Assembly: GCA_023957375.1 (NCBI GenBank)
Contig: JAMLHB010000002.1
Location: forward strand, 372,001-436,000
From: Flavobacteriales bacterium
Lineage (GTDB): Bacteria > Bacteroidota > Bacteroidia > Flavobacteriales_F > PHOS-HE28
Length of the DNA stretch: 64,000 nt
Reading direction: 5' to 3'
The position numbers were made by a program, and so were the translations under genes. The notes beneath the pieces are model-generated. The model was not told the origin of the DNA. It did no database searches and saw only the letters and a program-made list of their open reading frames with translations. Of the stretch, positions 1,616-40,435 are shown piece by piece (position 1 is the stretch's first letter; every line of letters begins with the position of its first letter).

Positions 1616-1822
1616 GTGAACACCGGGGCAGCTAATGAACGGATCGTGCAGCGCACCAGCGCAATCAACTGGGTCAACGCCGGGGCTCTCATGGGCCCGG
1701 CCCTGAGGGCTAAGGTCGGCACAGCCACCGGCAGGCCTCGAACACAACGCTACCACGTGAAGGTCCATCTTGGTTTCCGGGGTGGGCCTTTCCATTTCCG
1801 CCTGTCCTATCTTGCCGTTTCG

Positions 1823-5642: not shown

Positions 5643-5703
5643 ACATCGGCGCAAATGAGGCAAGGATCCACTTGAACAACAACAACCCAAGAACATTTAC
5701 ACC

Positions 5704-6810
5704 ATGAGACATGCCATCCTCCTACTGGCCGGCGGTTTGGCCGCTAGCACCTCCACCGCCCAACTACCCCGCATCGTGGTGCAGGGTGCCGGTGCACCGC
5801 AGGTCTTCACCGACCTTACCGCAGCCATTGCCGCCGCCCAGCCCAACGACGTGCTGTACTGCAGCGCGGGCACCTTCTCCTACACCGGGGGCCTGCAGAT
5901 CGACAAGTCGCTGCACTTCATCGGCGCCGGTATCCACCCGGACAGCACGGCGGCCACCGGCACCACCTCCTTCTACCGGAGTGGCGGCGGTAACGACCCG
6001 CTGTACATCCTGCAATCCGCCTCGGGCAGCACCTTCACCGGTATCTACTTCGATAACAACGGGGGAGGTAACACCAATTGGAGGATGATCGCATACGGCA
6101 CGGACGCAACCAACGATCAGGCGGGCAATATCCTCTTCCAGCGGTGCCGCTTCAGGAGCAGCAGGATCAATCTGGCCTTCGAACCTTCGAACAGCTCTCC
6201 GGCCATGGCGGGCCTGACAACCACCTTCGACGAATGCGTCATCAGCGCCGTTATCTATGGGGGCAACCGGGGCGTCGTGGCCACCCGCTGCATCCTTGAC
6301 CAAGCAGGGACGATCACGGCCAACAATGCGGGCTTTACCACCGTGGACCACTGTGTGTTCCTCGGCCCAAGCTTAGGCGATTGCTATACGGCACAGATCA
6401 GCAACACCATCTTCACCGGGTACCCGCCGGGCAACTGGGACTTTTTCTGCGGGGACTGCGGCGGCGCCACCGTGACCAATGTGCTGAACGGCTTCGCCCA
6501 TTGGGCCTACGGAGGAAACAACACCATGACCCTGGTGAACAGCCAACAGCTCACGGATGCTTCCACCCTCTTCGTTTCGGAAAGCAATTACCAGTACGAA
6601 TTCTCCGACGACCTTCACCCGGCAGCGAACAGCCCGGCGATCGGCTTTGCCAACGACGGCACGGATGCGGGCATCTACGGCTCCTCATCCCCCTACAAGC
6701 CGGGGGCCGTGCCCTACAACCCGCACTTCCTGCAAAGCACCATCGCCCCGGCCACCAACAGCAATGGCGCATTGCCGGTGAACATCAAGGTGGCCGCCCA
6801 AACGCATTGA
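5704..6810 (+). CDS. Secreted parallel beta-helix protein
   Basis: The 368-residue protein has a clear signal peptide (MRHAILLLAGGLAASTSTAQ). Its mature part is repetitive and beta-rich and resembles pectate-lyase/right-handed beta-helix folds: FTDLTAAIAAAQPNDVLYC fits the first turn that orients such folds, followed by many short strands with Asn and Cys ladders. It is the full-length paralog of the gene cut by the window start. There is no T9SS C-terminal domain and no recognisable active site. It lies 3 bases upstream of a T9SS cargo gene, so the two are probably co-transcribed. Possible roles are polysaccharide binding, polysaccharide cleavage or adhesion; none can be proved from sequence. 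Confidence 0.75.
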   Translation: MRHAILLLAGGLAASTSTAQLPRIVVQGAGAPQVFTDLTAAIAAAQPNDVLYCSAGTFSYTGGLQIDKSLHFIGAGIHPDSTAATGTTSFYRSGGGNDPLYILQSASGSTFTGIYFDNNGGGNTNWRMIAYGTDATNDQAGNILFQRCRFRSSRINLAFEPSNSSPAMAGLTTTFDECVISAVIYGGNRGVVATRCILDQAGTITANNAGFTTVDHCVFLGPSLGDCYTAQISNTIFTGYPPGNWDFFCGDCGGATVTNVLNGFAHWAYGGNNTMTLVNSQQLTDASTLFVSESNYQYEFSDDLHPAANSPAIGFANDGTDAGIYGSSSPYKPGAVPYNPHFLQSTIAPATNSNGALPVNIKVAAQTH

Positions 6811-24443: not shown

Positions 24444-26033
24444 TCAATCCACGTTGTCGTGCAGGAAGGGATTGTTGCGGCGCAGCTCCACCTGGTGCCC
24501 CCCGGTCTCATTGGTTCCTTCGGCCAGGGTGTAGCGGCTGACGTTGCTGTCCGTGCTGTGCGGCCCTTCGTTCAGTTCCACGTTGCGGCGCTTGAAGGCG
24601 GGCTCCCGCTCCATCGCCGCCAACCCGGCGGGGGTGCGCAACTGCATGCTCATTTCGCGCATGTGCGCCAGCCGGTTCTCCACGCGCAGCTGGTGTTCGG
24701 CGTGGGAAAGCTGCGCGGTCACGGGACCTTCTTCCGGGGCGTTGGCGGGTGCTTCCCCGTGCGGCTCGTGGGCAACGCTTCCTTGCGGGGCTTCATGCAG
24801 GTTGTGGACCACCTTGGTTTCCTGCGGCGCAGGTTCGGCTTTCGGCCGCGCAGGCAATGGCGCAGGCTCGAACTGCAGGCGCGGTTGTGCCGGCACCCCG
24901 TTGGCTTCCGCAGGTTTCAGGTAGGGTTCACTGATTTCCGGGGCCGGCGCCGGTGCTTGTTGCACCATTCCTTGCAGCGGGCTTGAAATGGGGGCCGTGA
25001 TCATGGTGGGCAGCTCGGTGTTGAGGCTGGTCACCTTCTTTTCGGGGATACGCTGCTCGAGGTTGGCGGTGATCTCGTTCTGGTTGAACCCGGTGGCGAT
25101 CAAGGTGATCCGGATGCGGTCGCCGAGCGACTCGTCCGTGCAATAGCCCCAGATCACGTCGGCCGTGCTGCCCGCGGCATCCTGGACGTATTCGTTCACC
25201 TCGGTCATCTCGTCCATGGAGATGTTCTGGCTTCCGATGGCGAAATTGAGCAAGATGTACTTGGCTCCCCTGATATCATTGTCATTGAGCAGGGGCGAGG
25301 AGAGGGCTTCTTCGGCGGCCCGCATGGTGCGTCCCTCCCCTTCCGCTTCGCCGATGCCCATGATGGCCACGCCGCTACCGGTCATCACCGTGCGCACATC
25401 CTCGAAATCCACGTTGACCTTGCCCGTTTTATTAATGATCTCGGCGATGCCCCTGGCCGCGGTGGTCAGCACGTTGTCCGCATGGGCAAAGGCCTGGTCC
25501 ATCTCCAAGTTGCCGTAGAGGTCCCGCAGGCGGTCATTGTTGATCACCAACAGCGTGTCCACGGCTTGGCGCATTTCCTCCACGCCTTGTGCCGCCTGGT
25601 TCTTACGCCTGCGGCCTTCCCATTGGAAGGGCATGGTGACGATGCCCACGGTAAGCACGCCCATGTCGCGGGCCGCCCTGGCGATCACCGGCGCGGCCCC
25701 GGTACCGGTGCCCCCGCCCATGCCGGCGGTGACGAACACCATTTTGGTGCGGTTGCCGAGGAGTTCGCGGATTTCCTCGATGTTTTCCTGCGCAGCAGCC
25801 GAGCCGCGCTCGGGGATGCTGCCGGCCCCCAGGCCATCATTGAGGTTGGAGCCCAACTGTAGTTTCACGGGCACCGGGCTGATGTCCAGGGCCTGTTTGT
25901 CGGTGTTGCAGATGATGAAGTCCACGCCTTGGATGCCCTGGCCGTGCATGTGGTTGACGGCATTGCTGCCGCCACCGCCTACACCGATCACTTTAATGAT
26001 GGACGAGATCTCGCTGGGAAGGTCGAATTTCAT
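24444..26033 (-). CDS. ftsZ: Cell division protein FtsZ
   Basis: The 529-residue tubulin homolog forms the Z ring. The GTPase signature GGGTGTG is at 106-112, with N-terminal VIGVGGGGSNAV and NTDKQAL. The conserved core ends near residue 320. A ~150-residue Pro/Ala/Glu-rich linker follows, then a C-terminal peptide near RRNNPFLHDNVD that is typical of Bacteroidota FtsZ and binds FtsA. The start at MKFDLPSEISSI is chosen because the fold begins there; the frame is open further upstream without homology. It lies 50 bases after ftsA in the dcw operon. Confidence 0.98.
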   Translation of the reverse strand: MKFDLPSEISSIIKVIGVGGGGSNAVNHMHGQGIQGVDFIICNTDKQALDISPVPVKLQLGSNLNDGLGAGSIPERGSAAAQENIEEIRELLGNRTKMVFVTAGMGGGTGTGAAPVIARAARDMGVLTVGIVTMPFQWEGRRRKNQAAQGVEEMRQAVDTLLVINNDRLRDLYGNLEMDQAFAHADNVLTTAARGIAEIINKTGKVNVDFEDVRTVMTGSGVAIMGIGEAEGEGRTMRAAEEALSSPLLNDNDIRGAKYILLNFAIGSQNISMDEMTEVNEYVQDAAGSTADVIWGYCTDESLGDRIRITLIATGFNQNEITANLEQRIPEKKVTSLNTELPTMITAPISSPLQGMVQQAPAPAPEISEPYLKPAEANGVPAQPRLQFEPAPLPARPKAEPAPQETKVVHNLHEAPQGSVAHEPHGEAPANAPEEGPVTAQLSHAEHQLRVENRLAHMREMSMQLRTPAGLAAMEREPAFKRRNVELNEGPHSTDSNVSRYTLAEGTNETGGHQVELRRNNPFLHDNVD

Positions 26034-26083
26034 GGGGAAAGGGATTTTCGGGTTCTGGGAACGGTATGGTCTGTTGGTCGGGT

Positions 26084-27373
26084 TCAGGCTTCGTCGTCGC
26101 GGAAGATGTCGGATGCGCCACTGATCACCGCGGAAAAGAAATTGCCGACCCTGGATGTGCTGTGGCTCTTCACCTTGGGCTCCAGTCCGGACAGCTTGTT
26201 CTGCTGGCGGTCGAGGTAATCGAACCCGCGCAGCACTAAGCCCACGCCGGTGGCGAAAAGCGGGCTGGTGACGGCTTCCACTTTGCTGTTGGCCAAGTGC
26301 TCGTTGGGGTATCCGATGCGTGTGCTCATGCCGGTGACGTACTCGGTGAGCTGCCGGAGGTGCTTTAGCTGCGCCCCGCCGCCCGTTAGCACAATGCCCC
26401 CGCTGAGCTGTTTTTCCAGGCCGCTGTTTTTGATCTCGAAGTAGACATGTTCGAGGATCTCCTCCATGCGGCTTTGAATGATGTTGGCCAGGTTCTTCAG
26501 GCTGATCTCCTTGGGATCGCGGCCGCGCAACCCGGGGATGCACACCACTTCATTCTCCTTGTTTTCGCTGGCCAGCGCGCTGCCGAACCGGCTCTTGAGC
26601 AGTTCGGCCTGGTCGCGCAGGATGGCACAGCCCATCTTGATGTCGTCGGTGATCACATTGCCACCAAAGGGGATCACGGCGGTGTGGCGGATGATGTGGT
26701 CGCTGAAGATGGCGATGTCGGTGGTGCCGCCTCCGATGTCCACCAGCACCACGCCCGCCTCCTTCTCCTCGGAGCTCAGCACCGCATCCGCACTGGCCAA
26801 GGGTTCCAAGATCAACTCGGTAACCGTCAGCCCGGCGCGTGCCACGCACTTATTGATGTTGCGCGCGGCGGTGACCTGGCCGGTGATGATGTGGAAGTTG
26901 GCTTCCAGCCGCACGCCGCTCATGCCGATGGGGTCCTTGATGCCCTGCTCGCTGTCCACGATGTATTCCTGCGGCAGCACGTGGATGATCTCCTCCCCGG
27001 GCACCATGGCCAACTTGTACATGTCGTCGATCAGCTGGTCGATGTCCTGCTGGCGGATCTCCTCCTCGAGGCTTTGGCGGGTGATCATGCCGCGGTGGTG
27101 CATGCTGCGGATGTGCTGGCCGGCGATGCCCACGTTCACGGTGGTGATCTCCACGCCGGCGCTGTTCTCGGCCTCCTGCACGGCGGCCTTGATGCACTCC
27201 ACCGTTCGCTGGATGTTGGTCACCATGCCGCGGGTCACGCCATCGCTGCGGCTCTTGCCCATGCCCATGACCTCCAGCTTGCCTTGTTCGTTCTTGCGCC
27301 CCACGATGCAAGCGATCTTGGTGGTGCCTATGTCAAGGCCTGCGACAATATCCTCGTTGTGCTCCATGTTCAT
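26084..27373 (-). CDS. ftsA: Cell division protein FtsA
   Basis: The 429-residue actin-fold ATPase anchors FtsZ to the membrane. It shows the phosphate-1 loop GLDIGTTKIACIVG, the FtsA-specific 1C domain, phosphate-2 VVLVDIGGGTTDIAIF and the adenosine motif IVLTGGGAQLKHLRQL. The C-terminus (ISGASDIFRDDEA) is short, as in other Bacteroidota. It lies between ftsQ and ftsZ in the usual dcw order. ATG at MNMEHNED; a second in-frame ATG two codons later is possible. Confidence 0.98.
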   Translation of the reverse strand: MNMEHNEDIVAGLDIGTTKIACIVGRKNEQGKLEVMGMGKSRSDGVTRGMVTNIQRTVECIKAAVQEAENSAGVEITTVNVGIAGQHIRSMHHRGMITRQSLEEEIRQQDIDQLIDDMYKLAMVPGEEIIHVLPQEYIVDSEQGIKDPIGMSGVRLEANFHIITGQVTAARNINKCVARAGLTVTELILEPLASADAVLSSEEKEAGVVLVDIGGGTTDIAIFSDHIIRHTAVIPFGGNVITDDIKMGCAILRDQAELLKSRFGSALASENKENEVVCIPGLRGRDPKEISLKNLANIIQSRMEEILEHVYFEIKNSGLEKQLSGGIVLTGGGAQLKHLRQLTEYVTGMSTRIGYPNEHLANSKVEAVTSPLFATGVGLVLRGFDYLDRQQNKLSGLEPKVKSHSTSRVGNFFSAVISGASDIFRDDEA

Positions 27374-27414
27374 TGTTCCGGCGTTCGGGCAGTTTTTATC
27401 GTTGGTATCAGGGG

Positions 27415-28221
27415 TTATTGGGGGGATCGCTTGGTGGCCACCACCTGGTCGTCAAAGCGCAGGTCCACGGTGCTGTACCTGCGCCAATCCGCCTGTGGCA
27501 AGCCTTGTTGGTAGAATAGCTTGAGCTTGTCCAGCCGTTGGGCCAGGTGGCTTCCATCGCCGACCCGCACTTGCATCATGCCCACATTGGGCACCAGGGT
27601 GAACTCGCCTTGGGCGTCCACCACGGCCTGTCCGAAAAGCGCGCTCCAGAAGGGATTTTTGCGCAAGGTGGTGGCCAGGGCATGTATGGCTGCGCAGTGG
27701 GAGTGCATGGCCAACGAATCATTTCCGGAGGTCACATTCACCGGGGCCTGCATCCCGAAGGGTTCCTGGAGCATGCCCGTCACCACCATCACGCGGGCGG
27801 TGTAGTTGGGGTCCAGGGGCATGGTCCAGCCTTCCTTATCGATGTAGAAGCCGGTGCCATCCGCGTTCACCACGCGTACGATGGGCTCGCGCTGCCGCGC
27901 GTTGACGTGCAGCACTCCGTCCATGGTGTGGTACACATCGGCCTCCGCCACGCAAGGGATGGCACGCAGGTGTTGCTCGATGGCGGTTTCATCCAGCTTG
28001 TTCACGGGGGTTCCGATCACGGGCCCCGTGCCCGTGGCCACCTGCAGCTTCAAAGCTTCGGCATCGATGAAATGCACGTCTCCCGCAGGTGCCAGGTTCA
28101 CGCGCACTTCCCGCACGGGCACGTTGTTACCGCGCTGCTCCACGAAGCCCAGCACCGCGATCACGGCACAGGCCGCGGCGAACTTCGCCGCCAGGCGCAG
28201 GGTCTTTTTCACACGGCTCAT
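27415..28221 (-). CDS. ftsQ: Cell division protein FtsQ/DivIB
   Basis: The 268-residue bitopic divisome protein has a short cytoplasmic N-terminus, one membrane helix (about 10-27) and a periplasmic POTRA and beta domain (LDETAIEQHLRAIPCVAEADVYHTMDGVLHVNARQREPIV). Sequence conservation in FtsQ is low, but its position between murC and ftsA and its topology are diagnostic. Its ATG overlaps the murC stop by 4 bases. Confidence 0.9.
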   Translation of the reverse strand: MSRVKKTLRLAAKFAAACAVIAVLGFVEQRGNNVPVREVRVNLAPAGDVHFIDAEALKLQVATGTGPVIGTPVNKLDETAIEQHLRAIPCVAEADVYHTMDGVLHVNARQREPIVRVVNADGTGFYIDKEGWTMPLDPNYTARVMVVTGMLQEPFGMQAPVNVTSGNDSLAMHSHCAAIHALATTLRKNPFWSALFGQAVVDAQGEFTLVPNVGMMQVRVGDGSHLAQRLDKLKLFYQQGLPQADWRRYSTVDLRFDDQVVATKRSPQ

Positions 28222-29597
28222 GGGTTGGCGTTGAGCATGGTTGCAATGGCGGGGACCAGCCTGTCGACATCCCCCGCTCCAAGGGTCAGCAAGATGTCCA
28301 CATCACGGGCCTTCAACAGCGGCACCAGTTGCTCCTTTGTGCACAGGGTGGTGTTAGTCCCAATGATGCGCTTGGCCAACCAGGCGGAGGTGATGCCGGG
28401 GAGGGGTTCCTCCCGGGCCGGATAGATGTCCAACAAGATCAATTCATCCAGCAGGGCCAGGCTGTGGGCAAATCCATCGGCCAAGTCGCGGGTACGGCTG
28501 TACAAGTGGGGCTGAAAAATGCCGGTGATCGTGCGGCCGGGATAGAGCTCGCGTACGCTGCGGATGCAGGTTTCCAGCTCGGTGGGATGGTGTGCGTAGT
28601 CGTCGATGAACAGGCTTTTGGATGTGCGCGCCCGCACCTCAAAACGCCTTCTGACGCCTTGGAAGGAGGCTAAGCCCTTGCGCACCGCCTCGGGGTTCAT
28701 GCCGGCGTGCACGGCCATAGCGGCGGCGGCCACCGCGTTTTCCACGTTGTGCCTCCCTGGCATGCCCAGGGTGAGCCCTCGCAGCACGGTGCCGTTGAGC
28801 ACCAGGTCGAAGTGGTACTTGCCATCACCTACGGCAACATGCTCTGCATGGGGTCCGTCCACCTCGTCGATCCCGTAAGGCACGGCATCGCGCAAGTTGG
28901 TGACGTGCTGCCGCAGCCGGTCCATCACCCGGCGGTGGACCAGGATCCTGCCTTGTACCAGCGCGGCGAAATCGGCGTAGGCGCGGTACATGGCCTCCGC
29001 ATCCCCATAGATGTCCAAGTGGTCCGGGTCCATGGCGGTGATGACGGCGTCGGCCGGGTGCAGGGCGAGGAAGCTGCGGTCATACTCGTCCGCTTCCACC
29101 ACGTTGAGCACGGCGTTGGTATTGAGCAGCACGTTGGTGTCATAGTTGGTGCTGATCCCGCCGAGGAAGGCATTGCAGGGCACCCCTCCCTGCGTGAGCA
29201 GGTGGGCGAGCATGGTGCTCACGGTGGTTTTGCCGTGCGTGCCCGCCACGGCCAAGGTGCGCCGGTCGCGGGTAACCAGGCCGAGCACCTCGCTGCGTTT
29301 CTTGATGACGGCCCCGCGTTGCTCCCAATAGGCGATCAGCGGGTTGTCCAAGGGTACGGCCGGGGTGCGCACCACCAGCAGCTTCGCCGGATCCGCCACG
29401 CGGAATTCCCCGGGAATGTTGCGCGGGTCGGTGCTGTAGCTCACATCGATGCCTTCGTGGGCGAGTTGCGCGGCCACCTCACCCGGAGTTTTGTCGTAGC
29501 CGGCCACGGTGGCGCCTTGGCGGCGGAAATAGCGGGCAAGGCCGCTCATGCCGATGCCTCCGATGCCAATGAAGTAGATCAGTTCCGGGCGTTCCAT
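28218..29597 (-). CDS. murC: UDP-N-acetylmuramate-L-alanine ligase
   Basis: The 459-residue cytoplasmic Mur ligase adds L-alanine to UDP-MurNAc. It has a Rossmann-type N-terminus (YFIGIGGIGMSGLARYF), the ATP-binding motif GTHGKTTVSTMLAHLL and central ligase residues (EADEYDRSFLALHP). The C-terminal domain has DDYAHHPTELET, ITGIFQPHLYSRT and LTLGAGDVDRL. It sits two bases after murG and overlaps ftsQ by four. Confidence 0.98.
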   Translation of the reverse strand: MERPELIYFIGIGGIGMSGLARYFRRQGATVAGYDKTPGEVAAQLAHEGIDVSYSTDPRNIPGEFRVADPAKLLVVRTPAVPLDNPLIAYWEQRGAVIKKRSEVLGLVTRDRRTLAVAGTHGKTTVSTMLAHLLTQGGVPCNAFLGGISTNYDTNVLLNTNAVLNVVEADEYDRSFLALHPADAVITAMDPDHLDIYGDAEAMYRAYADFAALVQGRILVHRRVMDRLRQHVTNLRDAVPYGIDEVDGPHAEHVAVGDGKYHFDLVLNGTVLRGLTLGMPGRHNVENAVAAAAMAVHAGMNPEAVRKGLASFQGVRRRFEVRARTSKSLFIDDYAHHPTELETCIRSVRELYPGRTITGIFQPHLYSRTRDLADGFAHSLALLDELILLDIYPAREEPLPGITSAWLAKRIIGTNTTLCTKEQLVPLLKARDVDILLTLGAGDVDRLVPAIATMLNANP

Positions 29598-29599
29598 GG

Positions 29600-30730
29600 C
29601 TATGCGTTGCTATTGTCGTCATCCGTTGCCGGCAAGGCGATCCGCAGAACCTCGGCCGCTATGGCCGCCGCCGCATTGCCCATGCCTATCGTGGCCATGG
29701 CTTCCCTGAGGCGTTGGCGCTCCCCGGGGTCGGCGACCAGGCGCAGCAGCGCCGGGCCCAAGTGTTCCACCGCCCCGGCATCCTTCACCAGTACGGCCGC
29801 ACCTATGTCGGCGAGCGCGCGTGCATTGCTCGTCTGGTGGTCTTCGGCGGCCGTGGGCAGCGGCACCAGGATGGAGGGCAGCTGGTTCAGGCAGAGTTCG
29901 CTCACGCTGATGGCGCCGGCGCGCGCCACCACCACATCGGCAATGGCATAAGCCAGGTCCATGCGGTTGATGAAGGCCTGTACGCGGGCGCCGGTGTACG
30001 CCGCGCGCTGCACCGCCGCTTCCGCTTCGGCAAGGAAGGGGGTTCCGGTTTGCCAAATGAGCTGCACACCCCGGTCCCTGAGCTGTTCAAGTGCGGCCAT
30101 TACCCCGAGGTTGATGCCGCGCGCGCCCAAGCTGCCCCCGGTAACGAAAACCACCGGTGCCCCATCCTGCAAGTTGAAGTGTTCAAAGCCTCGCGGACGC
30201 TTTCCCGCAAGGCGCACCATGTCCTGGCGCACGGGGTTGCCGGTCAGCCTGATCTTCTCCTTGGGGAAAAAGCGGTCCATCCCGGAGTAGGCCACGCAAA
30301 TGATCGAAGCCCGTTTGGCCAGCATGCGGTTCGTGGCGCCGGCATGGCTGTTCTGCTCCTGGATGAGGGTGGGCACCCCGGCGCGCTGGGCAGCGGCGAT
30401 CACCGGGCCGCTCGCATAGCCGCCTACGCCCACGGCCACCTGCGGCTTGAAGGTGCGCACGATGCGGCGGGCCTTCCACATGCTCCTGAGCAACCGCCAA
30501 GGCAGGCCGATGTTCTTCCACAGGGCCTTGCGCTGGAACCCGCGGATGGGCAGGCCGGCGATCTCGTATCCCGCTGCGGGCACCTTCTCCATCTCCATCT
30601 TCCCTTCCGCGCCCACGAACAGAAAACGTGCATCGGGCACGCGTTCCTTCACCGCATTGGCGATGGCGATGGCCGGGAAGATGTGCCCCCCCGTGCCTCC
30701 CCCGCTGATCATGACCTTAAGCTGCGGCAT
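29600..30730 (-). CDS. murG: Undecaprenyl-PP-MurNAc-pentapeptide GlcNAc transferase
   Basis: The 376-residue GT28 enzyme makes lipid II from lipid I at the inner face of the membrane. It starts MPQLKVMISGGGTGGHIFPA, with the glycine-rich loop used for lipid I binding. GGYASGPVIAAAQ and the C-terminal UDP-GlcNAc region (VTGGSLGARGIN, RAGAISVSEL, PTAAEDHQTSNA) follow. The start at 30730 overlaps the end of ftsW by 14 bases; an in-frame ATG at 30745 is an alternative. Confidence 0.97.
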   Translation of the reverse strand: MPQLKVMISGGGTGGHIFPAIAIANAVKERVPDARFLFVGAEGKMEMEKVPAAGYEIAGLPIRGFQRKALWKNIGLPWRLLRSMWKARRIVRTFKPQVAVGVGGYASGPVIAAAQRAGVPTLIQEQNSHAGATNRMLAKRASIICVAYSGMDRFFPKEKIRLTGNPVRQDMVRLAGKRPRGFEHFNLQDGAPVVFVTGGSLGARGINLGVMAALEQLRDRGVQLIWQTGTPFLAEAEAAVQRAAYTGARVQAFINRMDLAYAIADVVVARAGAISVSELCLNQLPSILVPLPTAAEDHQTSNARALADIGAAVLVKDAGAVEHLGPALLRLVADPGERQRLREAMATIGMGNAAAAIAAEVLRIALPATDDDNSNA

Positions 30731-31916
30731 GGGCACCTGATGCATGGGGATTCCCGGCCTTGGCGTTGGCTGGATCGTCGTATACACTGCGGCTTACACT
30801 GAGGATGATGCCGATGGCCAGGCAGGTGAACCACATGCTGGTGCCGCCCATGCTCACCAAGGGGAGCGGCTGGCCGGTCACGGGCACCAGGTTTACGCCA
30901 ACGGCCATGTTCACCAGCGCCTGCATCACCAAACCCAACGCCAGGCCGATGGCCACCAGCGAGCCGAACGGCTTCTCGCAGCGGTTGGCGATTCGCCTGG
31001 CACGCGACAGCAGGATCACATACAGCAGCAACACGCCCAGCCCGCCGATGATCGAACCGTACTCCTCGATGATGAAGGCGTAGATCATGTCGCTCTCGGG
31101 GTGCGGCATGTAGTTGCGTGAAGTACCCGTTCCGGGGCCGTTGGGCAGGAAGCCGCCGTGTACAATCGCGATCTTCGCCTTGTTCACCTGGTAATTGGCG
31201 TCGCTATCGGTGCCTCCATGGCTTTCGATCCGCGCCTGCCATGTTTGCAACCGGGGCAACAGTTCCGGGTTGGCCTTGGAGAGGAGCAGCAACAGGGCAA
31301 AGCCGCCCGCAGCTACGCCGCAGATGCCCAGCAGATGCTTCATTGGCACCCCGCCGATGAACATCAGCACCATGCAGGTGGCGAAGAGCAGGGCCGCGGT
31401 GGAAAAATTGGCCGGCAGGATGGCGGCGGCCACGGCACCCACAGGAAGCATCAGGCGCAGCAGCACCTCGCGGAAGGTCCATGGTTCGCCATGCCGCCGA
31501 GCCAACACGCGGGCCGTGTAGGCGATAATGACCACGCGGGCCAGGTCGCTCGTCTGAAAGGTGAGCCCGATGCCCGGAATGGCCAGCCACCGCGAAGCAC
31601 CGTTCACATTGCTGCCCACCAGCAGGGTAAGGACAAGCAACGCCACGGTGGCGCCCAAGAACACTTGCGACAGTTTGGAATACACCGTGTAGCGCAGCTT
31701 GCTGGCGGCATACATGATACCCCCTCCCCCGGCCAGCATCAAAGCATGCTTCACCAGGATCCTGAACGTGCCGCCGGTATCGCGCCAGCCCATCCACGAG
31801 GAGGCGCTATATACCGCCAACAGGCTGGTAACGGCCAACAGCAAGGCCACCATCCAAATGGTGCGGTCACCTCGTAGGTGCCGGTCCAGCAAAACATTCA
31901 TCCGTGGGTTGTACAT
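30717..31916 (-). CDS. ftsW: Septal peptidoglycan polymerase FtsW
   Basis: The 399-residue SEDS-family protein has about ten membrane helices. It polymerises lipid II at the septum together with FtsI. Conserved segments include LAVYSASSW, QTSDLARVVIIAYTARVLARRH, TGTSRNYMPHPESDMIYAFIIEEYG and VPVTGQPLPLVSMGGTS. A second ATG five codons in (31901) is also possible. Its start is 10 bases after the MurD-CTD-like gene. Confidence 0.96.
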   Translation of the reverse strand: MYNPRMNVLLDRHLRGDRTIWMVALLLAVTSLLAVYSASSWMGWRDTGGTFRILVKHALMLAGGGGIMYAASKLRYTVYSKLSQVFLGATVALLVLTLLVGSNVNGASRWLAIPGIGLTFQTSDLARVVIIAYTARVLARRHGEPWTFREVLLRLMLPVGAVAAAILPANFSTAALLFATCMVLMFIGGVPMKHLLGICGVAAGGFALLLLLSKANPELLPRLQTWQARIESHGGTDSDANYQVNKAKIAIVHGGFLPNGPGTGTSRNYMPHPESDMIYAFIIEEYGSIIGGLGVLLLYVILLSRARRIANRCEKPFGSLVAIGLALGLVMQALVNMAVGVNLVPVTGQPLPLVSMGGTSMWFTCLAIGIILSVSRSVYDDPANAKAGNPHASGAHAAA

Positions 31917-31926
31917 GGCGCGGGGG

Positions 31927-32415
31927 TCAGAGGTCTTTCAAGGCAAGTCTGTATTCCTTCCCGGAACCCGCACTGCTCCCCGTTTCCTGCAAGGCAGGGC
32001 CATCTGGGCAAAAGAGGACCTTCCCCCCTTGCACAGCCAGTTCACGCGCGGTGAAGACGGCCGTGCGGAGGTCGGGGGTGAAATAGGCCAGCTCCGATCC
32101 GGCGCTCCACGCATCCACCAGTGCGGGATCGGCCTTGCCATGGAACACTACGGCATCCACGTGCGCATGGAGGAGCTCCATCACACGTTCGTCCAAGGAA
32201 CCGGCCACGCCCGCATCCGCGATCCACACCAGGGGCTTGCCCAGCCCGGAGATGGCCTGAAGGGTTCCGTCCAACGTTGCCCCGGCGGAAAGCTCCATGT
32301 AATCCACGCCGGCAATGGAGGCCACGGTGCCCAACACCCCCGTCACCCGGGGCGTCCGATCGCGCGCGGAAGCCAATTGCTCCGCCCATTGTGCCATGGT
32401 CTTGCCTGCTGACAT
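31927..32415 (-). CDS. Free-standing MurD C-terminal-domain paralog
   Basis: This 162-residue protein lies between murD and ftsW, 25 bases after the murD stop and 10 before ftsW, so it belongs to the dcw operon. Its residues ~20-162 align end to end with the C-terminal domain of the neighbouring MurD: GVDYMELSAGATLDGT matches [29 protein letters not shown] matches [25 protein letters not shown] matches [12 protein letters not shown], and GGKVLFCPDGPALQ matches [14 protein letters not shown]. The residues typical of the ligase active site ([15 protein letters not shown]...RG) are lost, and the N-terminal UDP-binding and central ATPase domains are absent. It is therefore unlikely to be a ligase. 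No signal peptide or membrane helix is seen. A regulatory or structural role in the Mur/Fts complex is an inference. Confidence 0.8.
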   Translation of the reverse strand: MSAGKTMAQWAEQLASARDRTPRVTGVLGTVASIAGVDYMELSAGATLDGTLQAISGLGKPLVWIADAGVAGSLDERVMELLHAHVDAVVFHGKADPALVDAWSAGSELAYFTPDLRTAVFTARELAVQGGKVLFCPDGPALQETGSSAGSGKEYRLALKDL

Positions 32416-32440
32416 GGGGTCCGAGATTTCCACGGTTGGC

Positions 32441-33793
32441 TCAGAGCGCACGCACCGCTGCCTTGAACTTGCGGCCGCGGTCCTCGTAATTTTCAAACAG
32501 GTCGAAGCTGGCACAAGCGGGGCTGAGCAACACCACATCGCCGGGTTCGCCCAGTTCGTATCCCTTGTTCACGGCTGCTTCCGCCGAATCCACGTCGGTT
32601 ATCGAACCTACGATGTCGCCGAAGGCCTGGTGGATCTTTTCATTGTCCACGCCCAAGCAGATGATGGCCTTCACCTTGCGGCGTACCAGGTCGCGCAATT
32701 CCGAATAATCATTTCCCTTGTCCACACCGCCCACCACCCAGATCACGGGCTGCTCCATGCTCTCCAGGGCGAACCAGGTGCTGTTGACGTTGGTGGCCTT
32801 CGAGTCGTTGATGAACTCCACGCCGTTCACCGTGCCAACGCGCTCCAGGCGGTGCTCCACATTGCGGAAATCGGCCAGCGCATCGCGCAGCACATCGCTG
32901 CGCACGTCCAGCACACGCGCCGCAATGCCCGCCGCCAGGGAGTTGTACACATTGTGTTTGCCTTGCAGGGCTAGTTCCAGGATGCTCATGGTGAAGGAGG
33001 ATTGGTTGGTGTTGATGTGGATGTTTTCGTTTTGGAGGAAGCCGCCCTGTTCCACTTGGGTGCGGATGGAGAAGGGCCAATGGCGTGCGCGCACCGTATG
33101 GCGTTTGAGGCCTTCCCGGGTTTGGGGGTCGTCGGCACAGAAGATGAAGTGGTCTTCGGGCCCCTGGTTCATGGCGATGCGGAACTTGCTGGCCACATAG
33201 TTCTCCATGCGGTGGTCGTAGCGGTCCAGGTGGTCCGGCGTGATGTTGGTGATCACGGCAATGCGGGGCTTGAGGGTGCTGGTGCCGTCCAACTGGAAGC
33301 TGCTCAGCTCGAGCACCAGGATGTCATGCCGCTCCTTGGCTACCAGCCCTGCGAAGGAGGTGCCCACGTTTCCTGCGAGCCCGGCGTCCATGCCGGCCTT
33401 GCGGAGGATGTGGTGCACCAGGAGCGTGGTGGTGGTTTTTCCATTGCTTCCGGTGATGCCGATGATGGGCACGGTGACATGGCGCGACGCGAACTCCACC
33501 TCCGCGATCACCGGCACGCCCTTGCTGCGCAGCGCCTTGACCACCGAGGCCGTGTCGGGGATTCCCGGGCTTTTGACCACCTCGTCGGCCGCGAGGACCC
33601 GGTGCAAGGTGTGCCCGCCCTGCTCATGCCCGATGCCAGCTTCCTCCAAGCGTTTCCGGAACGGCTCCGCGATCAGGCCGGCATCACTGACAAAGACCGG
33701 CACGCCGAGCTTCTTGGCCAACAGGGCAGCCCCCACGCCGCTCTCCCCCGCGCCCAGCACCACCAGCTCTTTTGCCTTGCCCGCCGCGTTCAT
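32441..33793 (-). CDS. murD: UDP-MurNAc-L-alanine:D-glutamate ligase
   Basis: The 450-residue cytoplasmic Mur ligase adds D-glutamate. The N-terminal UDP-binding domain has [18 protein letters not shown], and the ATP loop is [17 protein letters not shown]. The central domain has [20 protein letters not shown] and the C-terminal domain [18 protein letters not shown] with [19 protein letters not shown]. The start overlaps the mraY stop by 4 bases. Its C-terminal domain is duplicated as the next gene. Confidence 0.98.
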
Positions 33794-35037
33794 CGCAGTT
33801 TCAGTGTTACCAGGGTGGCCACGGCGAGCATCACGCCCACAATGAGGAAGCGGGTGACGATCTTGCTTTCGTGGTAGCCGAGTTTTTGGAAATGGTGGTG
33901 CAAGGGGGCCATTTTGAAGATCCGGCGTCCCTCGCCATAGCGTTTGCGGGTGTACTTGAACCAGGACACCTGCATCATCACGCTCAGGTTCTCCACCACG
34001 AACACGCCGCAGAGCACGGGGATCAGGAGTTCCTTGCGCACCAGGATGGCCAGTGCGGCGATCACTCCGCCCAAGGCGAGGCTGCCGGTGTCGCCCATAA
34101 AGACCTGCGCGGGATAGGCGTTGTACCAGAGGAAACCGATGCAGGCCCCCAGCAACGCCCCCACGAACACCACCAGCTCGCCGATGCCCGGGATGTACAT
34201 CACGTCCAGGTATTGGGAGAAGATGATGTTGCCGCCGATGTAGGTGAGCACCCCCAGTGCCAGCACGATGATGGCACTGGTGCCCGCGGCCAGCCCATCG
34301 ATGCCGTCGGTGATGTTGGCCCCATTGCTGACGGCGGTGATGATGAAGACCACCACCAGCACGTACAGCACCCAGGTGTATTTGCGGGCCTCGCGGCCGA
34401 AGAGCCCCATCACCGAGGAGTAGTTCAGCTCATTGCCCTTCACAAAGGGGATGGTGGTGTTGGGCTGCCTCCGGTCCAGCAGGTAGTGCTTGGTGCCGCT
34501 GTCCTCGGTGAACACGCTGATCTCGGCCGGGTCGAACTGCTCGGCGATCACTTGGGGCACTTCCACCTTGGTGCGGATCGCCGGGTGGAAATACACGGTC
34601 AGCCCAATGACCAGGCCGATGCCGATCTGGCCGATGACCTTGAACATGCCGGCCAGGCCCCGTTTGTCCTTTTTGAAGACCTTGATGTAATCGTCGATGA
34701 AGCCGATGGTGCCCAACCACACCATGGCGATGAGCATGAGCAGGATGTAGATGTTGTCCAACCGGGCGAACAACAGGGTGGGCGCGATGGTGGCCAGAAT
34801 GATGATGAGGCCGCCCATGGTCGGCGTTCCCTGTTTTGCCACCTGGCCCTCGAGGCCGAGGTCCCGCACGGTCTCGCCCACCTGCTTTCGCTGCAGCAGC
34901 CTGATGATGCCCTTGCCCCACCACAGGGAGATCATCAGGGAGGCGATCAAAGCCATGCCGGCCCGGAAGCTGATGTAATCGAACACACCGCTTCCGGGGA
35001 AGGCCAGGTGGAACCCGTTGATGAGGTGGTAGAACAT
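33790..35037 (-). CDS. mraY: Phospho-MurNAc-pentapeptide translocase
   Basis: The 415-residue polytopic membrane enzyme transfers phospho-MurNAc-pentapeptide to undecaprenyl phosphate, giving lipid I. It has about ten helices with conserved signatures [55 protein letters not shown] and the HHH-type APLHHHFQK. It includes a ~40-residue loop rich in charged residues ([20 protein letters not shown]), a known Bacteroidota insertion. The start shares one base with the murE stop. Confidence 0.98.
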
Positions 35038-36500
35038 TACTTGCCGAGGAGTTCAAGGGTTTCCTTCATTACCTCCACATCACTGAAGTGGTGGCGCACG
35101 CCGTGCACCTCCTGGTAGGTTTCATGGCCCTTTCCGGCCACCAGCACCACATCGCCCGGGGCGGCCATGCCCAAGGCCTGGCGAATGGCCTCGCGGCGGT
35201 CGGCATTGACGAATGCCCGTGCCTGGTCCGCGGGCAACAAGCCCTTGCGCATATCATCGATGATGGCCATGGGCTCCTCACTGCGCGGGTTGTCGCTGGT
35301 GAGGATCACCGTTCTGCTCAAGCCTGCGGCAATGGCGGCCATCAGCGGCCGCTTGGTCTTGTCGCGGTCGCCGCCGCAGCCTACCACGGAGATCACGCGG
35401 TCGCGGTCGCCGCATACGGCGCCGATGGTGTTGAGCACATTCTTCAATGCATCGGGCGTGTGCGCGTAATCCACGATGCCGATCACGCCGCCCCGCCCCC
35501 TGACCACTTGGAAGCGCCCCGGCGGCGGCTCGAGGCTGCTCAGTGCCGTAAGCACTTCCACCTGCGGCTGGCCCAGCAGCACGGCCGCCGCATACACGGC
35601 CAACAGGTTGCTGGCGTTGAACTCGCCCACCAACTTGGAGTACACCTCATGGCCGTCGATGTTGAGCTGCAGACCGGCGAGCTGGTTCTCGATGATGCGT
35701 GCGCGATGGTCGGCCAGGTTGCGCACGGCATAGGTGCTTTTGGCAGCCTTGGTGTTCTGCACCATCACTGCGCCATGCGGGTCGTCCGCGTTCACCAAGG
35801 CATGTGCTTCCGCCGGCAAGGCATCGAAGAATCCCTTCTTGGCCCGGATGTAGTTGTCGAACGTGCCGTGGTAATCCAGGTGGTCATGGGTGATGTTGGT
35901 GAATATGCCGAGGGCGAACTGGAGCCCTGCGACCCGTTCCTGCACCACGGCATGGCTGCTCACCTCCATGAAGCAGTGGGTGGCGCCCCGTTCCACCATT
36001 TCGGCGAGCAGCTCGTTGATGCGCAACGGGTCCGGCGTGGTGTGGGTGGCCGGCAACACCTCGTTGCCCATGCGGATCTCCACCGTGGAGATCAGTCCGC
36101 AGGTGTAGCCCAGCGCGGTAAAAAGCTCGTGCAGCATGGTGGCCACGCTGGTCTTTCCGTTGGTGCCGGTAACACCGGCCAACCTCAGTTTCCGATCGGG
36201 ATGGTCGTGGAAATTCCCGGCCATGATCGCCAAGGCGTGCCGGCTGTCGGCCACGCGCACATAGGTCACGCCCTCCTTCATTTCGCCGGGCAGTTTCTCG
36301 CAGATCACGGCCACTGCGCCCCTTTCCACTGCGGCCTGGATGAAGGCATGCCCGTCGCTGTGGGTGCCGCGCACGGCCACGAAGGCGCCCGCCGGCCCGG
36401 CCCACCGGCTGTCGAAGGCGATGGATGCGATGGGTGTACGCGTATCACCGGCCACTTCTTCCAGGCGCGTGCGGTACAGGAGGTCCTTCAGCAGTTTCAT
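35037..36500 (-). CDS. murE: UDP-MurNAc-tripeptide synthetase, meso-DAP type
   Basis: The 487-residue cytoplasmic ligase adds the third amino acid of the stem peptide. It has the ATP loop [31 protein letters not shown], a central carbamylated-Lys region, and the C-terminal substrate motif [14 protein letters not shown] is the established signature for meso-diaminopimelate specificity, so the peptidoglycan is of the A1gamma type. It overlaps ftsI by 4 bases. Confidence 0.97.
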
Positions 36501-38614
36501 ATCGCCAGTTCCAGGGTTACGGTGGTTCCCTTTAAAGAGCGCTCCCCCGGCATGGGCGCCTGCCGCTTCACCATGCCGCTTCCGGTAAAGCGCACGCGCA
36601 TGCCGTGGTTTTCCAGGATGTAGAGGGCATCACGCAGGCCCATGCCCAGCACGTTCGGCACCATGGGCGTGCCGGGGTCCGGCACTGCCCGCGGTCCTAC
36701 CATCACCACGCTGTCGGTTGCGCTGGTGGAGGCCCACTCCCCGTCACCCTCCACGTTCACGGGCACCTTCAGCGCATCGAGCACCGTCAGCAGGTCGGCC
36801 CGGTTGCCGCCGAACGAGACGGGCGTGCGGAACACGGTATCGGCCTGGGCCGTGGCCGGGGCCTGCATTTCCAGGCGGTTGCTGTAGATCTTGTCGGCGA
36901 TCTCGCGGAAGACAGGTCCGGCAACCACATTGCCGTAGATGCCCTTCTGGGTGGGGGAGCTCACCACCACAATGCAGGTGTAGCGCGGCGCATCGGCTGG
37001 GAAATAGCCCACGAAGGAGGCTTGATAGCTTTTGCCGTTCACCTTGTAACCGGCCTTGTCCGCAGCGATCAGCGCGGTGCCTGTCTTGCCGGCGATGCGG
37101 AAGTGCGCGCTGCGCAGGTTGGTCGCGGTGCCTGAATCCACCACTGCTTCCAGCACGCCACGCAATTTGGCCAAGGTGGCTTCCCCGCAGATGCGCTCCT
37201 TGAGCGCGACCGGTTCAAAGCGCTCGGTGACCTTCCCTTCGCGGGTGATCTGGCGGACCAGTTGGGGCTGCATCATCCGCCCTCCGTTCGCAATGGCGTT
37301 GTAGAAGGTGAGGATGCGCATGGGCGTTACGCTCACCTCATAGCCGATGCTCATCCACGGCAGGGAGACCCCGCTCCACAGCTTTTTATCCTCGGGCCCG
37401 CGCAGCACCGGTATGCCTTCCCCGGGAAAGCGCAGGCCCAGTGTGCTTCCAAAGCCCAGGTTGCGCAGGCCCTCCACGAACTTGGCCGGGTCCGTCCGGT
37501 ACGCTTGGTCGATGGCCTGCGAAATGCCGGTGTTGCTGCTCAGTTCCAAGGCTCTTCCCAAGGTGATCAGGCCGTAGCCTCCGTCATGGGAGTCGATCAT
37601 GGTCCGGTCGTAGAACCGGCGCTTCCCGCCACGGGTGTCCACCACTTGGTCCAGGGAAACGCGCCCGTCTTCCAGGGCCACCATCAGGGCGGCGGTCTTG
37701 AAGGTGCTTCCCGGCTCGGTGCTGGCCCCGATGGCGTAGTTGTAATCCTCGGCGTAGGAGCTGTCCGGCTGCAGGGTAAGGTTGCTGATGGCCTTGATGT
37801 AGCCGGTCTTGGTTTCCATCACCACCACGCAGCCATGGTGTGCGCCGTTGCGGCGCAGCTGGGTGGCCAGGGCGTTGTCGGCCACGTCCTGCAGGTTCAT
37901 GTCGATGGTGGTGTGCACATCACTGCCCGGCACGGGTTCCTTTCCTTCGCCGCCGTCCACGGGCATCCACACGCCACCGGTCAGCCTCCTTTCGAGGCGC
38001 TTTCCCGAAACGCCTTGCAACCATGGGGCAAAACCGGCCTCCAGGCCCACGGCAGAGCTGTCCTTGAGCAGGTAGCCCACGGTGCGGGAGGCTAAGCGGC
38101 CAAAGGGCCGTATGCGGATCATGTACTTGTCCGCGATGAAGCCGCTCTTGTTGCGCCCCAACCGGAACAGGGGCATTTTGCGCAGGGCCTGCAACTGTTC
38201 GTGGTCGCACCGGCGCTTGATCAAATGGTAGCGTTCACCCCTCTCCCTGGCACGCACTAAGCTTTGGCGGTATTCCTGCATGGTGCGGTCGCCGAAGAAC
38301 TGGGAGAGGCTCCATGCCAGTGAATCGATGTTGGCTTGGAACAGCGCGTCGGTCAGGCCGTCGGCCTGCATGTCCATGCGGATCTCGTACATGGGCACGC
38401 TGGTTGCCAGCAGTCGGTCGTCATCGCTGAAAATGTGGCCTCGTTCGGAGCTCACCGTGCGCATGGCCGTGGCCACGTTTTCGGCCCGCTCGCGCCACTG
38501 GTCGCCTTCGAGCAGCTGGATGCTGAAGAGCTTCACGGCAATGGCGGCACTGAAAAGGATCAGCACGGCATACACCACCCCCATGCGCACTTGGTATGGG
38601 TTTCCGGCGTTCAT
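36497..38614 (-). CDS. ftsI: Septal penicillin-binding protein FtsI (PBP3) with PASTA domain
   Basis: The 705-residue transpeptidase is anchored by one N-terminal helix (about 12-32). A pedestal domain is followed by the penicillin-binding domain with all three motifs: the SxxK serine in STEPGSTFKTAA, SSN in ELSSNTGIS, and KTG in IAGKTGTALIA. A single PASTA domain ends the protein (MVPNVLGMGLRDALYILENHG ... [12 protein letters not shown]), as is usual in Bacteroidota. It acts with FtsW in septal wall synthesis. It overlaps both ftsL (4 bases) and murE (4 bases). Confidence 0.97.
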   Translation of the reverse strand: MNAGNPYQVRMGVVYAVLILFSAAIAVKLFSIQLLEGDQWRERAENVATAMRTVSSERGHIFSDDDRLLATSVPMYEIRMDMQADGLTDALFQANIDSLAWSLSQFFGDRTMQEYRQSLVRARERGERYHLIKRRCDHEQLQALRKMPLFRLGRNKSGFIADKYMIRIRPFGRLASRTVGYLLKDSSAVGLEAGFAPWLQGVSGKRLERRLTGGVWMPVDGGEGKEPVPGSDVHTTIDMNLQDVADNALATQLRRNGAHHGCVVVMETKTGYIKAISNLTLQPDSSYAEDYNYAIGASTEPGSTFKTAALMVALEDGRVSLDQVVDTRGGKRRFYDRTMIDSHDGGYGLITLGRALELSSNTGISQAIDQAYRTDPAKFVEGLRNLGFGSTLGLRFPGEGIPVLRGPEDKKLWSGVSLPWMSIGYEVSVTPMRILTFYNAIANGGRMMQPQLVRQITREGKVTERFEPVALKERICGEATLAKLRGVLEAVVDSGTATNLRSAHFRIAGKTGTALIAADKAGYKVNGKSYQASFVGYFPADAPRYTCIVVVSSPTQKGIYGNVVAGPVFREIADKIYSNRLEMQAPATAQADTVFRTPVSFGGNRADLLTVLDALKVPVNVEGDGEWASTSATDSVVMVGPRAVPDPGTPMVPNVLGMGLRDALYILENHGMRVRFTGSGMVKRQAPMPGERSLKGTTVTLELAI

Positions 38615-39006
38615 GGCTTGCTGCGGAGCTTTGTCAGTTCCTTCTGTTCCACGGCGATCTTCGCAGGCGGCACCCGGCTTTCACGCAGGCCCAGCCCGCT
38701 GATGTCGTCCGCCACTTGGCTCTGGCTTTCGGTGCGTTCCAGCAGGCTGCGCACGGTGATGTATTCCGACCGCATTTCCTTCAGTTCGCTGCTGGTGCGG
38801 TCCAATTCGCGCACGGTGCGCTCGGTCCAGTAGCCGTAGCCGATGTAGAAGAGCATGAGCCCGGCCACAAAGAGCAGGAAAGGCATGTTGGCCAGCACCT
38901 TTTCGCGGGTGAGGAACGTGCCGTTCAGCACGTTCACCAGCCCACGCGGGAACGTGCGCCGCCGTTTTTCTCCTTCCTGCCGGGGCATGTCCTTGCGCTT
39001 GTTCAT
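38611..39006 (-). CDS. ftsL: FtsL-like divisome protein
   Basis: The 131-residue bitopic protein has a basic cytoplasmic tail (KRKDMPRQEGEKRRR), one membrane helix (about 41-59, PFLLFVAGLMLFYIGYGYW) and a periplasmic coiled coil (RTVRELDRTSSELKEMRSEYI). Primary sequence conservation is weak, but size, topology and position between rsmH and ftsI match FtsL of Bacteroidota. It overlaps both neighbours by 4 bases. Confidence 0.88.
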   Translation of the reverse strand: MNKRKDMPRQEGEKRRRTFPRGLVNVLNGTFLTREKVLANMPFLLFVAGLMLFYIGYGYWTERTVRELDRTSSELKEMRSEYITVRSLLERTESQSQVADDISGLGLRESRVPPAKIAVEQKELTKLRSKP

Positions 39007-39917
39007 CGCCTTGTTGCGGTTCTCATCCGCGCGCTTCGGGCACGCGGGTTGCGGTCCATCTCTTCTTCCGATGCCTGCACGGCTTTGCCGCCCACCGGAC
39101 TGAACGGGCGCAGGCTGTTTCCGTACAGGTCTTTTTGCTCATGCCCTTCCATGTTGCCGGCCCGCATCCAGTTTTTCACCAGGCGGTCCTCCAGACTGTG
39201 GTAGCTGATCACTACCAAACGGCCGCCCGGCCTGATCATCCGGGCGCTGTCGTGCAGCAGCTGGCGCAGCGCACCCAGTTCATCGTTTACGGCGATGCGC
39301 AAGGCTTGGAACACCTGCGCGAGGAATCCATGCTCGTCGCCCCTCCGTGCAAGCGGGCGCAGCAGAGCAGCCAGTTGGCCCGTGGTGGCAATGGACGCAC
39401 GGGCGCGCTCCGCAACGATCGCCCGGGCCGCGCGGCGTGCCTGGGCCACCTCGCCATAGTCCTTGAAGATCTTGGCCAGGTCCGCTTCATCCAAGGTGTT
39501 CAGCAGGTCCGCGGCGGAACGCTTGGCGCCTTGGTTCATCCGCATGTCCAGGGGCGCATCGAACCGGAAGCTGAACCCTCGCTCCGGCGTATCAAACTGG
39601 TGGCTGCTTACGCCGAGGTCGGCCAGCAGCCCGTCCACAGGCCACTTCCCCAGGAAGCGCAATTGGTTGGCCACCCATCGAAAATCCGAGGCCACCAGGG
39701 TGAAGCGCGGATCAATCGGGGCATTGGCCCTGGCATCGGCGTCGCGGTCAAATGCGATCAAGGCGCCTTGTGCCCCGAGCCGGGCCAGGATGGCGCGGCT
39801 GTGCCCACCTCCTCCGAACGTGGCATCCACATAGGTGCCTTGCGGGTCGATGACGAGGGCCTCAACGCTCTGCTGCAACAGGACCGGCTCATGGTATGTG
39901 GCTTGGGCCGTCATCAT
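39003..39917 (-). CDS. rsmH: 16S rRNA (cytosine1402-N4) methyltransferase
   Basis: The 304-residue enzyme methylates C1402 of 16S rRNA with S-adenosylmethionine. The N-terminus is YHEPVLLQQSVEAL, SAM binding is DATFGGGGHSRAIL, and GLLADLGVSSHQFDTPERGFSF and VISYHSLEDRLVK are the conserved catalytic-region blocks. It overlaps mraZ by 29 bases. The second of two tandem ATGs (39914) is equally possible. Confidence 0.98.
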   Translation of the reverse strand: MMTAQATYHEPVLLQQSVEALVIDPQGTYVDATFGGGGHSRAILARLGAQGALIAFDRDADARANAPIDPRFTLVASDFRWVANQLRFLGKWPVDGLLADLGVSSHQFDTPERGFSFRFDAPLDMRMNQGAKRSAADLLNTLDEADLAKIFKDYGEVAQARRAARAIVAERARASIATTGQLAALLRPLARRGDEHGFLAQVFQALRIAVNDELGALRQLLHDSARMIRPGGRLVVISYHSLEDRLVKNWMRAGNMEGHEQKDLYGNSLRPFSPVGGKAVQASEEEMDRNPRARSARMRTATRR

Positions 39918-40365
39918 TGCCCAGGCTGCCCATTACTTCTTCCGCCAATGCGGAGAGGTTCACCTTTTCGCGGCGCATCCGCGCATAACCCTCTTTGCTC
40001 CACACCTCCACCCGGTCGCCCAAGCACACCAGCTTGAGGTCCTTGCCCAGCTTCGGATCGTCCATTAGTGCCTTGGGCAGCAGCAAGCGCCCGCTTCCAT
40101 CGAGTTCCAAATGCGTGGCCCCCGAAGTGAACCGCCGGATGAACTCCATGTTCTTCTCCACGAAGCGGTTCAACCGGCCCAGCATGCGGCTGGTCTGATC
40201 CCACACCGCGTGCGGATAGAGCACCAAGCAGGGCTGGAACACGTCGCGGTTGACCACGAAGCCCTTTGAGAGGGCGCTCTCCAACTGCTTCTTCAGTCCG
40301 GCAGGCAGCACTAAGCGCCCTTTCGCATCCAAGCGGACCTCGTATTCGCCGAGCAGGTTGAGCAT
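39889..40365 (-). CDS. mraZ: Transcriptional regulator MraZ
   Basis: The 158-residue protein has two AbrB/SpoVT-like swapped-hairpin domains (GEYEVRLDAKGRLVLPAGLKK; THLELDGSGRLLLPKALMDD). MraZ is the dcw autorepressor and binds direct repeats of GTGGG with 5-base spacers. Such an operator is present upstream (40411-40435). The start at MLNLLGEYEVRLD is chosen from family alignment; the upstream in-frame ATG at 40425 would lie inside the operator. It is the first gene of the dcw operon. Confidence 0.97.
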   Translation of the reverse strand: MLNLLGEYEVRLDAKGRLVLPAGLKKQLESALSKGFVVNRDVFQPCLVLYPHAVWDQTSRMLGRLNRFVEKNMEFIRRFTSGATHLELDGSGRLLLPKALMDDPKLGKDLKLVCLGDRVEVWSKEGYARMRREKVNLSALAEEVMGSLGNDDGPSHIP

Positions 40366-40392
40366 GGGTGGCCATCGGGGGACTTGTGGCGG

Positions 40393-40400
40393 CGAAAGTA
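40393..40400 (-). promoter_or_regulatory. -7 promoter element of the dcw operon
   Basis: On the minus strand this reads TACTTTCG, one mismatch from TAnnTTTG and identical to the element of the RNA-binding protein gene. The mraZ ATG is 27 bases downstream. The -33 region falls inside or next to the MraZ boxes, as expected for repression. Confidence 0.55.
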
Positions 40401-40410
40401 GGCCCTTTGT

Positions 40411-40435
40411 CCCACTTTCATCCACATAACCCCAC
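40411..40435 (-). promoter_or_regulatory. MraZ operator, three GTGGN boxes
   Basis: On the minus strand the sequence is GTGGG, five bases, GTGGA, five bases, GTGGG: three boxes at an exact 10-base period. This is the arrangement MraZ is known to bind in E. coli and Mycoplasma. It covers about -15 to -40 relative to the predicted start. Confidence 0.8.

Follow-up and report, generated by a model that had tools for sequence, protein, structure and literature searches.

Few bacterial gene sets are as well studied or as conserved as the dcw cluster; in E. coli, the murD and ftsW genes within it overlap by one base. Mur ligase enzymes consist of three domains, PF01225, PF08245 and PF02875 (PMC3060825). 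In MurD, domain 3 comprises residues 299–437, and D-Glu is held by Lys348, Thr321, Ser415 and Phe422 (PMC3527612). MurD opens and closes as its domain 3 rotates, a motion in which Arg302 participates (PMC4816537). A search of the open-access literature, with subscription papers outside its scope, found no description of an extra dcw gene, or of a MurD C-terminal domain that stands alone or occurs as a paralogue.

The gene between murD and ftsW

The window analysed, a 64 000 nucleotide stretch of contig JAMLHB010000002.1 from a Flavobacteriales bacterium (GenBank assembly GCA_023957375.1), carries an additional gene, here termed X, in a dcw cluster that is otherwise complete from mraZ to ftsZ (Table 1). 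The names of the dcw genes other than murD were read off the translations. An alternative start codon for X is the ATG at 32397. The initial annotation described X as fitting tightly between murD and ftsW, and the gaps were found to be 25 nt from the murD stop codon to X and 10 nt from X to the ftsW start. It also stated that the codon use of X resembles that of the neighbouring genes, which was borne out only in part. In a codon model the X frame scored best of the six frames, but its score of 0.125 compares with 0.31–0.51 for nine neighbours, and its codon use is the weakest in the operon (GC3 of 0.74 versus 0.81–0.89 in the neighbours).

Long spurious ORFs are frequent in this GC-rich DNA, and the X ORF by itself is therefore little proof of a gene; X is taken to be a real gene because it is conserved across dozens of relatives. 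A chance ORF was ruled out by this conservation together with the codon model, and a frameshifted or truncated murD was ruled out as the adjoining MurD is complete. The genome of the window carries a single copy of X.

Table 1. Features of the dcw region in the window
Feature	Coordinates	Strand	Basis
X, stand-alone MurD domain-3 paralogue, 162 aa	31927..32415	-	ATG at 32415, stop codon ending at 31927; profile, BLASTP, fold, selection
X segment homologous to MurD domain 3, residues 28–162	31927..32334	-	alignment with MurD 316–450; model residues 27–162 on 7sy9 309–447
X N-terminal 27 residues	32335..32415	-	predicted helix 7–19, weakly conserved, low pLDDT
murD, complete, parent-type enzyme, 450 aa	32441..33793	-	TIGR01087, E 3.6e-122
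ftsW	30717..31916	-	agrees with ftsW in the E. coli gene order
dcw cluster: mraZ, rsmH (mraW), ftsL-like, ftsI, murE, mraY, murD, X, ftsW, murG, murC, ftsQ, ftsA, ftsZ	24444..40425	-	

X matched the MurD profile TIGR01087 with an E-value of 1.3e-8 (X residues 28–139 on profile positions 308–419). Its score of 34.3 bits is far below the equivalog cut-off of 211.95, so X does not classify as a MurD; the first X-family member of set A2 scored 126.6 bits against the same cut-off. TIGR01087 was matched by all 24 X tested, and no other NCBIfam model was. For PF02875, the window copy scored 17.7 bits (E 0.0068), under the gathering cut-off of 28.4 bits, and 21 of 24 X-family members matched at E ≤0.001, member 1 at 30 bits. 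In BLASTP, X and the adjoining MurD shared 20% identity over 137 positions (E 8e-6). With PF02875 alone in its 162 aa, X does not have the three-domain organisation of a Mur ligase.

An AlphaFold2 model of X, built on an alignment of five X sequences from which MurD was left out, had a mean pLDDT of 77.9. When this model was used in a Foldseek search, the six top PDB matches were all MurD chains, and it superimposed on MurD residues 309–447 (7sy9) with a Z score of 15.1 over 132 residues (rmsd 2.8 Å), compared with Z scores of about 9–11 for MurC, MurE, MurF, Mpl, MurT and cyanophycin synthetase. As MurD chains rank above the other Mur-type folds, the modelled X is a MurD-type domain 3, with the predicted alpha/beta fold of the PF02875 domain, in agreement with the structural relationship proposed in the initial annotation. 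The proposed alignment over the whole length of X held for residues 28–162, but not for the first ~27, which match no more than the final helix of the MurD central domain. In other X proteins, the N-terminal stretch is equivalent to this helix.

The Foldseek search also matched X to a chain of ~200 residues in the plastid-encoded RNA polymerase complex (8qma_O, E 2.9e-4; 8ras_Q, E 4e-3), which is possibly another stand-alone Mur-ligase-like domain.

Distribution and inheritance of X

X and MurD were not separable by profile score (both ~1e-55), and frame length and position were used instead, members of the X family being stand-alone domain-3 genes located between murD and ftsW, as in the window. 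In the window's genus, the only one of its order in the genome collection, X was found at the murD locus in 43 of 45 genomes, which is every genome with that locus assembled. The other two genomes (82% and 69% complete) had no murD match either and are uninformative. An even draw from the class comprised 396 genomes, and 64 of the 376 outside the genus had at least two matches, an upper value, since split murD genes appear to account for three or four of them. The order murD–X–ftsW was present in all 30 fully read loci, from 16 further families of the class, bringing the families with X to at least 17 with that of the window, and X was immediately before ftsW in all loci checked. The gene that the initial annotation suggested seeking between murD and ftsW in related genomes is thus widespread. 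The named relatives bearing X (L031–L035) are MAGs labelled Flavobacteriales, except one labelled Bacteroidetes.

In 20 loci of the class that lack X, ftsW begins 2–90 nt after murD with nothing between them. X was also absent from Bacteroidales, Muribaculaceae, Saprospirales and Sphingobacterium records, where ftsW directly follows murD, and from a Rikenellaceae record, where no ftsW was seen beside murD. X was not found in 89 genomes from other classes of the phylum, the sole second match there resembling a split murD.

Unusual arrangements were seen in a few genomes. In G085 (L129, G085:C2:61500-70500; coordinates 2993–4762, minus strand), X and ftsW are paired, 6 nt apart, and murD is on another contig (L132); this is the sole case seen of X located apart from murD and beside ftsW. 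A locus from family f74 (L089; coordinates 1764–2841, plus strand) carries two strongly diverged copies, X1 and X2, in tandem between murD and ftsW. Families f4 and f42 have a second, unlinked X-like gene encoding about 180–205 aa (L052, L053, L055; L130, coordinates 3871–4488, minus strand), which in f4 adjoins MerR-like and sigma-factor-like genes and encodes SPAS instead of SPAC. In the window's genus, genome G039 (L131; coordinates 3670–4278, minus strand) has a third MurD-C-like copy, outside the dcw cluster, with a zinc-ribbon-like N-terminus (CxxC..CxxC). A scaffold gap of 100 N cuts X in L032 (coordinates 5357–5878, plus strand), and the odd C-terminus of this X is probably an effect of assembly.

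In a maximum-likelihood tree of 38 X and 44 MurD C-domains, the two groups separated except for two copies from family f11, and the X sequences of one family mostly clustered together, a pattern that vertical inheritance would predict. The window X was within the genus X clade (support 100/100), grouping with other X and not with its own MurD, which rules out a recent local duplication. A tree with X constrained to one clade was 4.07 lnL better than the free search (p-AU 0.577). Repeated independent duplications are therefore disfavoured, though the f11 copies, found among the MurD C-domains in the free tree, may reflect a second origin or a conversion there. In a MurD plus FtsW tree, genomes with and without X interleave, with ten changes, which, taken with a single X lineage, points to one gain and several losses; on these trees a single origin followed by several losses is not rejected. 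As X groups by family, no sign of horizontal spread was seen. X is best explained as an ancient copy of MurD domain 3, passed down for the most part vertically, that turned into a separate dcw gene without catalytic function in one large group of Bacteroidia.

Residues and selection

Residues were counted in 75 X and 85 MurD sequences, the literature numbers being the translated-protein numbers minus one. Lys348, the lysine that holds D-Glu, is retained in 4 of 75 X versus 82 of 85 MurD, and the GGxDKGND loop is gone from nearly all X, loss of this GGxDKG lysine loop being what nearly all of them have in common. Three residues found in all 85 MurD, Asp317, Ser415 and Arg302, are retained in 68, 61 and 43 of the 75 X, respectively. 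The face toward ATP and the central domain is mostly kept in the family (NDS..T, SPAC.S and RG, with N316, S318 and P included), and the family has signature changes of its own, L410F (85%), A330S and F315Y (E. coli numbering with Met). The X of family f11 (L061, L079), placed among MurD C-domains in the tree, keep nearly all motifs including the lysine.

Judged on these positions, the window copy is at the extreme of the family and among its most eroded members. It has kept none of the D-Glu contacts Lys348, Thr321, Ser415 and Phe422, lacks the H, E, N, D, T, S, C, S, Y and R at positions retained by most X, and has G, E, L, A, C, G, A, S and S where most other X are conserved, so that much of the face is lost. 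Y422 is absent from all nine members of the window clade; outside this clade, most X retain D317, S415 and Y or F at 422. Motifs quoted from the window copy therefore under-represent the family. The replacement of catalytic segments reported in the initial annotation (ELSAGATL for NDSKATN and CPDGPALQ for SPACASFD) is correct for the window copy, but most of the family keeps NDS..T and SPAC.S.

X is under purifying selection. Pairwise NG86 ω values for X were 0.05–0.5 overall and mostly 0.05–0.3. In a branch-specific codon model written for this analysis, ω = 1 was rejected for the window X branch (2ΔlnL 17.76), showing that X is kept by selection and is not in the neutral decay that the initial annotation considered. 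The ω of this branch was 0.21 versus 0.137 for the background, a difference that is not significant (2ΔlnL 0.93), and these values are rough, as the branch is long with synonymous sites near saturation and only the rejection of neutrality is reliable. Relaxed selection on the window branch, indicated by NG86 values of 0.35–0.51, was discarded because the codon model estimate does not differ from the background. Under the same model, the corresponding ω values for murD were 0.042 and 0.057.

Possible roles of X and comparison with known systems

As X is without the UDP-binding and ATP-binding domains, it cannot perform ligation alone, and it is a pseudoenzyme domain paralogue. The stand-alone, non-catalytic duplicate of MurD domain 3 recognised in the initial annotation is thus upheld, with residues and two further domains for catalysis missing. 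Sensing of UDP-MurNAc-peptides, one of the roles then suggested, is unlikely and was ruled out, because MurD binds the UDP part through its N-terminal domain (PMC3527612), which is absent from X.

The explanation favoured here, with a probability of about 0.4, is that this non-catalytic duplicate is a candidate docking mimic that modulates MurD. X would be produced together with MurD and, as a mimic of domain 3, would dock on the ATP/central-domain face exposed in open MurD (or another Mur ligase), tuning the activity or stability of the ligase while performing no chemistry itself. Conservation of the inward face combined with loss of the D-Glu lysine is the pattern expected of a docking mimic, and the fixed place of X between murD and ftsW, in the 30 loci outside the genus and in the genus loci, also argues for this role. 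Branch rates within the genus lean the same way, with X following MurD given FtsW (partial correlation 0.60) more than FtsW given MurD (0.24), though the difference falls short of significance (95% interval -0.74 to 0.04), and outside the genus the comparison is undecided. However, the window copy has lost much of the conserved face, Arg302, which is central to closure, is present in only 43 of 75 X, and in G085 X stays with ftsW, far from murD. X has also been lost several times, indicating that any control it exerts is dispensable and its role accessory. It is a more tentative and rather doubtful proposal that X represents an unnamed family, at least as old as the large Bacteroidia group, of trans-acting pseudo-domains that would control the opening and closing of MurD and thus the flux of D-Glu addition; in that case a Mur ligase would come with its own built-in regulatory protein.

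The main rival to a MurD mimic is a scaffold on the FtsW side, where X would be a structural adaptor on the FtsW/MurG side, a soluble domain keeping MurD or the enzymes that make lipid II close to FtsW and leaving catalysis unaffected. In another bacterium, MurG has been reported to act as a scaffold for Mur enzymes (PMC6420597), and X is just before ftsW everywhere checked, including in G085. However, G085 is one split genome in which the break may have landed between murD and X by chance, what is conserved in X is its core and active-site face rather than an obvious new surface, and the genus rates track MurD rather than FtsW, albeit not significantly; an adaptor is possible but unlikely. 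That X is a dispensable relic under weak constraint, folded, tolerated and expressed through its operon position, with little function and disappearing in many lineages, would fit the several losses, the eroded window copy with its weak codon bias and a rate about twice that of MurD in the genus (tree length 13.9 versus 6.9). It is nevertheless improbable, given the rejection of neutrality on the window branch, the mostly low pairwise ω, the retention of X in 43 of 43 assembled genus loci and the clade motifs SPACPSGNGFANYEERG, which are invariant or almost so among 31 genus members.

Retention of D317, S415 and Y/F at 422 in most X outside the window clade might indicate a small-molecule sensor of precursor supply that can still bind some of the MurD ligands (ADP/phosphate or D-Glu). 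We consider this quite improbable, as 71 of 75 X have lost the D-Glu lysine, Y422 is missing from the window clade, and X has neither the central domain, which provides most of the grip on the nucleotide, nor the N-terminal domain, which binds the UDP part (PMC3527612). Least probable is a split or swapped enzyme, with X providing domain 3 in trans for MurD or some other Mur-type ligase. The f11 X, with its near-complete motifs and 94% conservation between two genomes in which MurD has 69%, would suit such a role, but wherever a complete murD was read, f11 included, the adjoining MurD carries its own intact domain 3, and X outside f11 is without the lysine.

X is an additional dcw member in at least 17 families without a family model of its own, as no X-specific model was found in NCBIfam or Pfam, and existing annotation probably lists it as a MurD fragment or a hypothetical protein. 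To our knowledge, no protein inhibitor of MurD, itself a drug target, has been described. If X acts on MurD, a natural mimic of domain 3 would show how the cell restrains MurD and would offer a handle on the regulation of precursor supply. If X instead binds FtsW, it would physically link precursor synthesis to septal polymerisation.

Among known systems, domain 3 of MurD is the closest to X, sharing its fold, order of elements, clear sequence homology and gene neighbourhood. X differs in being domain 3 alone, without the UDP-binding and ATPase domains, in the loss from nearly all X of the loop with the D-Glu lysine, and in the changes at positions 410, 330 and 315. The same domain fold is found in the C-terminal domain of Mpl (3mvn) and in MurC, MurE, MurF, FolC and cyanophycin synthetase, but these domains are parts of multidomain ligases and match X less well than MurD does. 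In GatD/MurT, MurT is a Mur ligase relative that has been recruited to a new complex, where it acts with a partner and is not a classical Mur ligase, and its C-terminal domain (6gs2) is a fold match to X (Z 9.5). However, MurT is an active, ATP-dependent subunit that contains the Mur middle domain, whereas X is without this domain and is predicted to have no ATP-dependent activity.
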